Shown: in pieces, positions 17,176-33,355 of the stretch | Numbering within the stretch: the first letter of the stretch is position 1 | Layout of the letters: each line of letters opens with the position of its first letter | IMG/VR virus record: IMGVR_UViG_3300025097_000013 | Coordinates: 1-42,645 of that record | DNA from: a virus | Length of the DNA stretch: 42,645 bases | Reading direction: 5' to 3' (one strand) | Program-made: the position numbers and the translations under genes | The notes under the pieces: generated by a model | Database searches by the model: none | The model's input: only the letters and a program-made list of their open reading frames with translations | What the model was told of the DNA's origin: nothing

Positions 17176-18432
17176 ATGGTAGAGAAATCAGCCGAAGAAA
17201 AGGCAAAGGAAGCTAAGCTGATCCTGAAAGAACAGTTGGCGCTCCTCACAGAGACAGAAGGCACTCGTATTGCCAAGACACGACAAGAGCGGGAAAAGGA
17301 CGAGGCATTAGGTAAAAGACGAGGGGAAGAACTTTTTGGAAAAGAAGCATTAGGTCGTGTGCGCACAGATCCTAGTGGTAAATCTTTACAATTACAGCGG
17401 GACAGAGAACAGTCATTAATTAGTCAGAGAGCTCAATCCGCCGAAGACGTAAAAGGTAGAGAAGCAGAGATCACACGAGGGACATCGGAACTAGATAAAC
17501 TCATAGCGGCTCGTACAGATCCAAATAGTGAATTAGCTAAGCTTCAGCGTTCGTCTGGACGTGAGCAGATTAACCGTGCTCTTCAAGGACAATTAGGTCA
17601 GATCAGAGCTGCAGGAAACGTAGCACAGTCTGGTGTTAGTCAAGCTTTAGTAGGAGACGCATTAGGCGGAGCTTTACAAGCTAGAGCAGGTTTAGAGAGA
17701 GACCTTCTATTGGGTGGCTTATCTGCTGCAGAGGACTTAACTCTCCAGAGAGAAGGATTAAGAGAAAGGGGCACATCAGCTAAGGAAGATTTACGTTCTA
17801 GAGGAAGAGCAGAAGAGACTGCATTAAGAGATCGTTTAGAAGGCCTTCAAGGACAAATACAAGATGATCAACTAAGACGTCAGCTTATCAACCTAGACCA
17901 ACGTAAGCAAGAGTTATTTGGTAAGTTAAGCACAGAGCAGAACATTGTTGCACAAGGTGTAGCAGAGCGTTCAGGTGTAAGACAGCAGATTCTTGCGGAA
18001 GTAGGAGCAGCCGAATCAACTAGAGCCCAGCGCGAAGCAGAAGAATTACAGAGAGCAGAGATTGCTAAACCGCCACCTAGCTCAGGCGGGGGCGGAGGTA
18101 AAGTCATATGTGGTGAACTCCACAGACAAGGCCTACTCGATGACGTAACATATCAAGGTGACTTAGCTTATGCAGTAGGAATGAATCCTGATGTAGTAGC
18201 AGGGTACCAAATCTGGGCTATTCAATATGTAGAACTAATGAAGGTGTCTAAAGTCGCTACTTATATGGCATATCCTATAGGTAAAGCATGGGCCACAGAA
18301 ATGGCATATCGTGCAGGTTACCTTAAGAAGGGAAGCATCGCAGGGAAGATCATAAGTTTCTTAGGAGAGCCTGTTTGTAACCTTATTGGTAAGGCAATGA
18401 GACTATTCAAATGCAACCGAGTGGAGGCATAA
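17176..18432 (+). CDS. Probable ejection protein with coiled coil and C-terminal helical domain
   Basis: The 418-residue protein is Arg/Glu/Gln-rich and coiled-coil over residues about 5-300, then has a Gly/Pro linker (PPPSSGGGGG) and a distinct C-terminal domain (about 312-418) with three Cys, VICGELHRQGLL, a Trp/Tyr-rich centre and PIGKAWATEMAYRAG. A similar C-terminal domain occurs in other phage proteins that I associate with DNA ejection; the link is from memory. Such proteins leave the capsid with the DNA and build a conduit across the envelope. No lysozyme domain is visible. Confidence 0.65.
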   Translation: MVEKSAEEKAKEAKLILKEQLALLTETEGTRIAKTRQEREKDEALGKRRGEELFGKEALGRVRTDPSGKSLQLQRDREQSLISQRAQSAEDVKGREAEITRGTSELDKLIAARTDPNSELAKLQRSSGREQINRALQGQLGQIRAAGNVAQSGVSQALVGDALGGALQARAGLERDLLLGGLSAAEDLTLQREGLRERGTSAKEDLRSRGRAEETALRDRLEGLQGQIQDDQLRRQLINLDQRKQELFGKLSTEQNIVAQGVAERSGVRQQILAEVGAAESTRAQREAEELQRAEIAKPPPSSGGGGGKVICGELHRQGLLDDVTYQGDLAYAVGMNPDVVAGYQIWAIQYVELMKVSKVATYMAYPIGKAWATEMAYRAGYLKKGSIAGKIISFLGEPVCNLIGKAMRLFKCNRVEA

Positions 18433-29386: not shown

Positions 29387-30112
29387 TTATACTCCCGGTT
29401 TCTTTGCAGCTTCTATAGCACTCTGACGTGCCTTCTGTTTTTCTACTCTCTGCATTATATGTAATTTTTTTAGAAATGTCAAGTAGTCTTTGTGAATCTT
29501 TACGATAAAGGATGCAGGGATAAACATAGTCTCTCCCCCGCCGCCTAAGGATACTATACCTATAACCTTTCCTTCACTATTAAAAATAGGAGATCCTGAA
29601 TGTCCAGGTATAGTAGCTAACTCGGCTCTGACATACATGGAGTGGATTCCATACCTAGGAATATCGACAAGATAATGATATAAAACTTTACCATATCTAG
29701 CGCTGTACCATGTACCTCGGCCGAAGCCTATAGTGTGAATCTCCTGTCCTCTCTTTACCTTTCCTAGATCTAATACCAAGGTCTCTCCTCTAGAGAACCC
29801 TACCTTGACTAAAGCTAGATCGTGAAGCTTATCAACGCCGACAACTAATCCATCTACTACCGTGTTGTTAACCAACTGAACTTTAACTTTATCTTTACCG
29901 TCTATTACATGTGCATTAGTTACTAAAAGGTTATGACTGATAAAGAATCCTGTACCGTGTCCTCGGCCGTTCATAATCATAGCTATATTGCCATTTTCAT
30001 GTTCAACGAAATTCTCCTTAACGTACTGCACCGCCGACGGAGTGTGAACGATACCTGCTCCTAGCATTAGTCCTACTATTATAGTAAGTAATATTTTATT
30101 CAGTCTGGTCAT
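29387..30112 (-). CDS. Exported trypsin-like serine protease (HtrA/Deg-type)
   Basis: The 241-residue product begins with an uncleaved or cleavable signal (residues 5-22 hydrophobic) and continues with a chymotrypsin-fold protease domain. The catalytic triad is His68 (VTNAHVI), Asp98 (HDLALV) and Ser172 (PGHSGSPIF). The oxyanion loop and strand order match DegS/HtrA proteases, but there is no PDZ domain. It should act in the periplasm or on the outer face of the inner membrane. Serine proteases of this type are uncommon in small phages. Substrates could be envelope or defence proteins. Confidence 0.85.
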   Translation of the reverse strand: MTRLNKILLTIIVGLMLGAGIVHTPSAVQYVKENFVEHENGNIAMIMNGRGHGTGFFISHNLLVTNAHVIDGKDKVKVQLVNNTVVDGLVVGVDKLHDLALVKVGFSRGETLVLDLGKVKRGQEIHTIGFGRGTWYSARYGKVLYHYLVDIPRYGIHSMYVRAELATIPGHSGSPIFNSEGKVIGIVSLGGGGETMFIPASFIVKIHKDYLTFLKKLHIMQRVEKQKARQSAIEAAKKPGV

Positions 30113-32267: not shown

Positions 32268-32483
32268 TTATTGTCTCCATTTGTTGTACATCCTGAAATA
32301 CATTCCTATCAGGCATATGTTCAAAACTAGGAGACCCCAATGTTGGTATGCGATGATCCATATGAACCATCCAGCCTCCGCTATCAATCCCATTACTGGG
32401 GCGTTCTTACTTTTATCACCTGCTAACCACATAGTGATAATTGTGAGTATCGAAATTGTAATCTCTGCTATTGTCTCTATCAT
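32268..32483 (-). CDS. Small membrane protein of the short PnuC-like type
   Basis: The 71-residue product has two or three hydrophobic segments (about 4-21, 29-45, 47-63) with a Trp-rich pattern (GWFIWIIAYQHWGLLVLN) and a final NKWRQ, resembling the two-segment piece of nicotinamide transporters that several phages encode. The frame can open upstream at TTG 32570, but ATG 32483 has AGAGAAG ahead of it, so I use that. The resemblance is partial and the function is unproved. Confidence 0.5.
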   Translation of the reverse strand: MIETIAEITISILTIITMWLAGDKSKNAPVMGLIAEAGWFIWIIAYQHWGLLVLNICLIGMYFRMYNKWRQ

Positions 32484-32605
32484 CACAACTTCTCTTAAAT
32501 CAAATGTAGGGTACGGACCGAAGTCCTTTAGTTTAATCTGGTCCCACAGGGTCAATTCCCTTAAGCACAACCCAAACCCCTACGATGCGTTCGGACCTAT
32601 TTAAA
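32484..32605 (-). other. Gap after the tmRNA-like gene with a UUCG hairpin
   Basis: The 122 bp between the tmRNA-like RNA and the next ATG hold no clear gene. A perfect 4-bp stem with a TTCG loop (GGAC, TTCG, GTCC) lies at 32526-32515 on the minus strand. UUCG hairpins often mark the 3' region of structured transcripts. No T-run follows. Confidence 0.45.
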
Positions 32606-32687
32606 TGGTGGAGACGGCCAGAATCGAACTGGCGTCCATGGCGGTTCCGCGTGCGGCATTACCCCATGTCGAACCCTTCACGTCCCC
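32606..32687 (-). ncRNA. tRNA-like domain of tmRNA without mRNA-like part (minimal tmRNA)
   Basis: The 82-nt RNA reads from 32687 down. The acceptor GGGGACG (32687-32681) pairs with CGTCTCC (32616-32610) with a G3.U70 wobble, the alanine identity pair. An A and encoded CCA follow at 32609-32606. The D-loop-like segment GGGTTCGACATGG matches the 5' end signature of tmRNA. The T-arm has stem GCCAG/CTGGC and loop TTCGATT, and the GGACGC before it also matches tmRNA 3' ends. The two halves are joined by a short hairpin (CATGG 32668-32664 with CCATG 32641-32637, extended by GGT/ACC and a CCG/CGG tip). In full tmRNA this stem continues to a tag-coding part of over 200 nt; here it is absent. It lies 5 bp after the ligase gene on the same strand. 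Confidence 0.85.
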
Positions 32688-32692
32688 ATAAC

Positions 32693-33355
32693 TTATTTAT
32701 CTACTCTCTCTCGTACAAATCTAGGATGTCTAAACTTACCGTTCGGAGTAAGGCTCATAGCCTCCACTTCAATGATTTTTCCTATAGGAGGGTTTTTAAA
32801 GTACTGATCTCGTTGTGCGTCTGTTAGTCCTGTCCCTACTTTTCCCATGGGTGTCACTAAGGCGCCTGCTTTTCCTAAGTTCTTTCCTTTGCCTTCTATC
32901 ATTTCTAATACTTCAACGTCGTGTGTCTCTACCGGCTTTACTTTGAATAGTCCTTCTGAGCTGCGTATAACTAATCCTTCATATCCCTTACGTACGGCGC
33001 TATCGAGTAAACCTTTTACTTCTTTCGGACGAAGTATAATACCGTCTGGATATCCTCCAAATAAGCGCATATCAAGTATAGGGTAGAGTTGGTATAGTGC
33101 TTCTTTACTTATCTCCTTTCCCTTGTGCGTCCGCACAGCAGATACTGAACTTTTCCAGTCTCCTAAATAGACTTCATATATTCCGTCGGGCATGTGTGGC
33201 AAATTATGTAAATCCTTTCCTGCACGGGACACCCACTGTCCGTTTTGTCTTATAGCTTGCACTCCGTCTATTTTATACGCCATGAAAGCTTTAGTAAGAT
33301 CCCTGTCAAACCTATAAGTTTTGAATTTCAGGATCGATCTTCTTAAGTCTGTCAT
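32693..33355 (-). CDS. Minimal ATP-dependent DNA ligase
   Basis: The 220-residue enzyme has the nucleotidyltransferase motif I KIDG with Lys28 as the expected AMP-carrying residue, SRAGK (about 43-47), YEVYLG (about 60-65), EGLVIR (motif IV) and FKVKP (motif V), followed by an OB-fold C-terminal part. It is far shorter than T7 ligase (359 residues). It lacks an N-terminal DNA-binding domain. It joins nicks during replication and recombination. The start overlaps the previous frame by 44 bp. Confidence 0.88.
   Translation of the reverse strand: MTDLRRSILKFKTYRFDRDLTKAFMAYKIDGVQAIRQNGQWVSRAGKDLHNLPHMPDGIYEVYLGDWKSSVSAVRTHKGKEISKEALYQLYPILDMRLFGGYPDGIILRPKEVKGLLDSAVRKGYEGLVIRSSEGLFKVKPVETHDVEVLEMIEGKGKNLGKAGALVTPMGKVGTGLTDAQRDQYFKNPPIGKIIEVEAMSLTPNGKFRHPRFVRERVDK

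Follow-up and report, generated by a model that had tools for sequence, protein, structure and literature searches.

The 42,645-base IMG/VR record analysed here, referred to throughout as the window, encodes a tmRNA reduced to its tRNA-like domain (TLD), in which the alanine determinant of the acceptor stem is intact and the message is absent; two scans combined yielded at least 98 distinct TLD-only RNAs, mainly from IMG/VR and nearly all in viral contigs. The TLD-only kind has precedents in phage DS6A and in organelles; the novelty lies in how numerous and widespread the class is, in a charging determinant that never varies and in the conserved cap, AAAGCCGCAYGCGG, that takes the place of the message in many members. 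No paper on a wider phage class of TLD-only tmRNAs was found in the open-access literature, DS6A being the one named phage example so far, and with about 100 distinct RNAs, all with the alanine determinant, what had been a curiosity becomes a recurrent strategy among phages. Tentatively, these RNAs may form a large overlooked class of charged, message-less tmRNAs which would seize stalled ribosomes through host SmpB, AlaRS and EF-Tu, serving an anti-rescue or a tagless, alanine-tailing pathway, with a cap that would have its own function. Phage manipulation of ribosome rescue becomes directly testable, and knockout is feasible because cultured phages of laboratory Streptomyces hosts carry unannotated copies.

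Anatomy and genomic setting of the RNA

The window belongs to a tailed phage, with a terminase, a P22-like portal, an SU10-type capsid protein and a family A DNA polymerase; further genes encode an ATP-dependent ligase, a VapE-like protein and a trypsin-like serine protease (29387–30112, Pfam Trypsin_2, 8e-24), the last of these located in the replication half of the genome. An Rfam search of the entire record returned a single match, the TLD-only RNA, which fits the one-piece tmRNA model RF00023 from end to end (model positions 1–374, E 3.2e-25). The first-pass annotation had placed the RNA at exactly these coordinates; its 5' end is at 32687 and its 3' CCA at 32606, hence it lies on the minus strand. 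The features are as follows, together with the two flanking genes.

32606–32687, minus strand: TLD-only tmRNA, mature 82 nt including the encoded CCA (RF00023, 65.1 bits, cut-off 47)
32681–32687, minus strand: acceptor stem, 5' strand GGGGACG, G3 at 32685 (7/7 pairs with 32610–32616, including G3.U70)
32668–32680, minus strand: D-loop region UGAAGGGUUCGAC without a D-stem, the SmpB-binding signature of tmRNA (sequence and Rfam alignment)
32638–32667, minus strand: connector helix P2 (AUGG/CCAU, then GGU/ACC), purine internal loop AAUG/A and cap hairpin CCG-CACG-CGG (P2 covariation, alignment counts)
32634–32637, minus strand: GGAC before the T-arm, GGACGC with the next letters (Rfam alignment)
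32617–32633, minus strand: T-arm GCCAG-UUCGAUU-CUGGC, T-loop UUCGAUU (Rfam alignment and parser)
32610–32616, minus strand: acceptor stem, 3' strand CGUCUCC, U70 equivalent at 32612 (pairing parser)
32606–32609, minus strand: discriminator A and encoded CCA (sequence)
32693–33355, minus strand: ATP-dependent DNA ligase gene (Pfam DNA_ligase_OB_2, 8.7e-14)
32268–32570, minus strand: next downstream ORF, 100 aa, no assigned function (PHROG 2421, 8.6e-6)

The RNA thus has the 7-bp acceptor, the D-loop signature (GGGUUCGAC) without a D-stem, the T-arm, the 3' CCA and the G3.U70 alanine determinant of a tmRNA, and every part of the domain named at first pass (GGGGACG, the D-loop signature, GGACGC, TTCGATT, CCA and G3.U70) was found again. 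The mRNA-like domain with its tag frame and pseudoknots is absent, and a hairpin of roughly 20–30 nt occupies its place: at the message site, 20 nt of the window RNA align with 312 model positions, in keeping with the earlier description of a TLD without its message. The replacement consists of P2, whose stem has one bulge, the AAUG/A loop and the CCG-CACG-CGG hairpin. Together with the phage genes around it, the RNA is a phage gene of little more than a TLD, the kind described for DS6A.

Several other identities were rejected. The tmRNA model outscores the ordinary tRNA family (RF00005) within the clan, settling in favour of tmRNA a comparison that the first-pass annotation had left to be made, and ARAGORN called neither a tRNA nor a tmRNA in the window. 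The permuted, two-piece tmRNA model (RF04321) reached 16.9 bits against a cut-off of 47; the 5' and 3' halves stand in normal order and are joined covalently by the hairpin, in contrast to the permuted arrangement, and the Rfam search of the whole 42,645-base record found no second tmRNA piece, so that the earlier claim of a missing tag-coding part holds for the entire record. A relic of an ssrA attachment site was rejected for the window, which has no tyrosine integrase and in which the 5' half and P2 are intact. As for folding, the TLD fold can be computed (-29.5 kcal/mol) but is not the optimum, as the minimum free energy of -32.2 kcal/mol belongs to another fold and is itself no better than that of shuffled sequences (z -1.0). 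Single-sequence folding being uninformative, homology and covariation carry the structural argument.

The RNA begins 5 nt past the stop codon of the ligase gene, has the same orientation and fills nearly the whole gap between the ligase and the next ORF. No minus-strand promoter-like site was found between the ligase and the RNA, and in this gap promoter-like sites did not exceed chance. Since the RNA adjoins the ligase in the same direction and such sites are not above chance, it is probably cut from a longer transcript shared with that gene. Neither SmpB nor, by ARAGORN, any tRNA gene was detected in the window. The 6 kb around the RNA had no DNA match among 50,697 phage records, and the terminase has only distant likeness to those of Pelagibacter, Vibrio and Pseudomonas phages.

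Relatives and sequence constraint

Relatives were collected by a broad scan of IMG/VR for TTCGAC, a gap of 6 to 36 nt and GGACGNNNGTTCRANTC, leaving the acceptor unconstrained, followed by a parser that demanded acceptor and T-stem pairing but accepted any standard pair. Among the matches listed, at least 72 distinct TLD-only RNAs in at least 104 loci were recovered; four of these were found in cultured phages or in contigs of bacterial genomes, all others in IMG/VR. A second scan on the cap and T-arm only (AAAGCCGCAYGCGG...GGANNNNNGTTCRANTC), with acceptor and D-loop free, gave 29 distinct sequences, all 29 with a 7/7 acceptor. A stricter pattern, GGGGNNG...TTCGAC...GGACG, was found in 87 viral stretches (three sub-patterns) and had three matches, two of them convincing, in 84,980 bacterial and archaeal species represented by one genome each, figures that form a contrast and not a rate since the two collections are of unequal size and prophages are part of the bacterial one. 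A match in an Acidobacteria MAG looks like chance; six first-scan candidates (L003, L009, L013, L015, L024 and L025) were set aside for an unpaired acceptor or as pieces of full or permuted tmRNAs, and matches in Pseudomonas, Alcaligenes, Xanthomonas and S-CAM1 are permuted tmRNAs.

Unannotated copies occur within tRNA clusters in the cultured Streptomyces phages BRock, LuckySocke, GiJojo, pSt2308 and Shaeky, and between gp008 and the capsid gene in Pontimonas phage phiPsal1. The LuckySocke copy is 77 nt long and occupies 17977–18053. In GiJojo, the hypothetical protein gp44 (699–941 of locus L143) is annotated across the RNA and is probably a false gene. The end of a Cellulosimicrobium cellulans contig (L127, 568–649) holds another copy in a tRNA cluster surrounded by phage-like ORFs, and is probably a resident phage.

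Constraint on the acceptor stem is uneven. Pairs 1-72, 2-71 and 3-70 are G-C, G-C and G.U in 72/72 RNAs of the first set, and pair 3-70 is G.U in 29/29 of the second, so that G3.U70 is present in all of the at least 98 distinct RNAs, neither scan having constrained the acceptor; pairs 4-69, 5-68 and 6-67 each take four or five pair types in the 72 RNAs, with compensatory changes. P2, which played no part in selecting sequences, is paired in 93% of cells in the 53 long-class RNAs, compared with 44% (maximum 52%) after shuffling, and its covariation score is 0.719 against 0.185 for shuffled partners, every slid register being far worse (alignment A1). ACCA is encoded in only 35/72, and many relatives would therefore require CCA addition by the host.

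The gap that replaces the message is bimodal in length, with 19 RNAs at 12–22 nt and 53 at 25–35 nt. The former are short hairpins without the cap, some closed by UUCG, and the latter are mostly P2, purine loop and cap. In about two thirds of the long class, a U-R-R triplet (UAA, UAG or UGA) was seen by eye just 5' of the cap hairpin (alignment A1); it may represent a loop motif instead of a stop codon. A hidden mini-frame or stop codon in the cap region was considered, but the triplets are indistinguishable from the purine internal loop. Several cap hairpins (L044, L091, L109, L082, L077 and others) include exact palindromes (CCGCATGCGG, CCCATATGGG, CCGCTAGCGG, CCTTGCAAGG, CCCACGTGGG), a property that would permit dimerization of the RNA.

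No SmpB was found in 49 carrier records, many of which are fragments whose absences are not proof, whereas the control search found it in 10/14 known genomes; with none in the window either, the phage RNA must use host SmpB. A full-length tmRNA accompanies the TLD-only RNA in 2/50 records, Streptomyces phages Tomas (TLD-only copy L138, NC_070781 88030–88106) and Riptide (L137, PV654398 83298–83373); both copies keep acceptor, T-arm, P2 and cap intact, have lost the D-loop signature and have a degenerate GGAC, and are possibly repurposed paralogues. Neighbouring gene families are hardly shared, the largest occurring at 6/72 loci, so that no conserved partner gene emerged and the ligase linkage highlighted at first pass is a local accident. 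At most loci, no tRNA gene is close by.

Proposed function and competing explanations

The explanation favoured here, with slightly better than even confidence, is that the RNA would act as an alanine-chargeable competitor which uses host SmpB, EF-Tu and AlaRS to enter stalled ribosomes and block or divert trans-translation. Its release from a polycistronic phage transcript would fall to RNase P and 3' processing enzymes of the host; host AlaRS would charge it via G3.U70, host SmpB would bind it, and EF-Tu would deliver it to stalled ribosomes whose A site holds no mRNA. Carrying neither a resume codon nor a tag frame, it would compete with host tmRNA for SmpB and stalled ribosomes and would accept the peptide without tagging. 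Trans-translation would thus be blocked or diverted during the takeover of the cell, to the presumed benefit of the phage.

Such competition should follow from the tRNA mimicry of TLD and SmpB, the AlaRS determinant and the inhibition reported for a DS6A-like molecule. Together, the TLD and SmpB imitate a complete tRNA (PMC3929946), and G3-U70 is a potent AlaRS determinant that is completely conserved in tmRNAs (PMC3985003). According to PMC4131195 and PMC11915505, which cite Mao et al. 2009, a DS6A-like TLD molecule strongly inhibits tmRNA in E. coli whether or not it can be charged, perhaps through SmpB titration. The SmpB decoy or inhibitor suggested at first pass agrees with this work insofar as the molecule described there is similar. 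As G3.U70 is kept in all of the at least 98 RNAs and a pure sponge would not need it, the RNA probably acts in its charged form on the ribosome. The rarity of carriers with a full-length tmRNA (2/50 records) also favours the competitor. Against it, the inhibition in the cited work is independent of charging, the TLD fold of the window RNA is not the thermodynamic optimum, a full tmRNA beside a D-loop-less copy in Tomas and Riptide is not predicted by a simple anti-rescue role, and plain competition leaves the conserved cap unexplained.

Sequence alone cannot separate blocked rescue from a tagless rescue in which the charged RNA with SmpB would free ribosomes by adding one or more untemplated alanines, leaving phage proteins without the ssrA tag. 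This pathway is considered unlikely. To our knowledge, no termination step is known for a tagless TLD-only RNA, which counts against it, as does the inhibition reported in vivo for a similar molecule (PMC4131195); it would fit the invariance of G3.U70, the untemplated polyalanine synthesis obtained in vitro from a TLD fragment with SmpB (PMC3929946) and the persistence of tagless mitochondrial tmRNAs together with SmpB (PMC11915505). Titration of SmpB by a passive sponge, for which charging would be irrelevant, agrees with the inhibition reported for chargeable and unchargeable forms alike (PMC4131195), but it is judged quite improbable as G3.U70 is fixed while acceptor pairs 4 to 6 drift with compensation.

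A similarly low probability is given to another use of the tRNA-like fold with the cap as its active part, for instance in binding a host ribosomal or RNA-processing protein. The conservation of the cap across many phages and its retention with acceptor, T-arm and P2 in the Tomas and Riptide copies, where the D-loop signature is lost, speak for such a role, whereas the SmpB-binding D-loop is kept in nearly all RNAs and the AlaRS determinant in all, and 19/72 have a short hairpin only, without such a cap. Integrases often use ssrA, and the RNA could in principle be an integration-site relic or attP derived from the host gene. A tyrosine integrase is present in 10/49 carrier records, and at L017, L090, L122, L123 and L096 no more than about 2 kb separates the RNA from the integrase gene, a position expected of an attachment site; the integrase is absent from the window and from 39/49 records, including four complete Streptomyces phage genomes, and neither the 5' half nor P2 covariation nor a conserved cap would be required of an attP. 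An attachment-site relic is therefore very improbable for the class, and possible for a minority of RNAs near integrases.

Relation to known message-less tmRNAs

The first-pass annotation had placed reduced tmRNAs in mitochondria only, which is too narrow, as examples are on record from phage DS6A, from two plastid genes and possibly from a few bacteria; of the 97,179 sequences in the 2025 tmRNA database, only nine are classed as 'standard, no CDS' (PMC11915505). The tmRNA of mycobacteriophage DS6A (tmID 11587) carries the label 'TLD only' (Mao et al. 2009, via PMC4131195 and PMC11915505) and, like the window RNA, is phage-encoded with little beyond the TLD and no tag frame; DS6A is a different phage, and the two RNAs are likened by description. 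The CDS-less mitochondrial tmRNA (RF02544) and the approximately 65-bp plastid tmRNAs of Mallomonadaceae likewise have no tag reading frame, but these are organellar, the mitochondrial gene usually being permuted, whereas the phage RNAs are one-piece, uninterrupted TLDs.

In comparison with the standard one-piece tmRNA (RF00023), the window RNA shares the acceptor with G3.U70, D-loop signature, T-arm, CCA and P2 connector, and differs in having no mRNA-like domain, tag frame or pseudoknots, its 82 nt standing against a model of 374 positions. The full-length phage tmRNAs of Streptomyces phage Tomas (tag DNSNVAFALAA) and Mycobacterium phage Kumao are also phage-borne and share the TLD, but unlike the TLD-only RNAs they retain the message. 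The short natural class, at about 60–66 nt without CCA and in some members with a UUCG loop, shares its design with the UUCG-closed Thermus thermophilus TLD solved with SmpB (2CZJ; PMC3929946), which is a man-made fragment.
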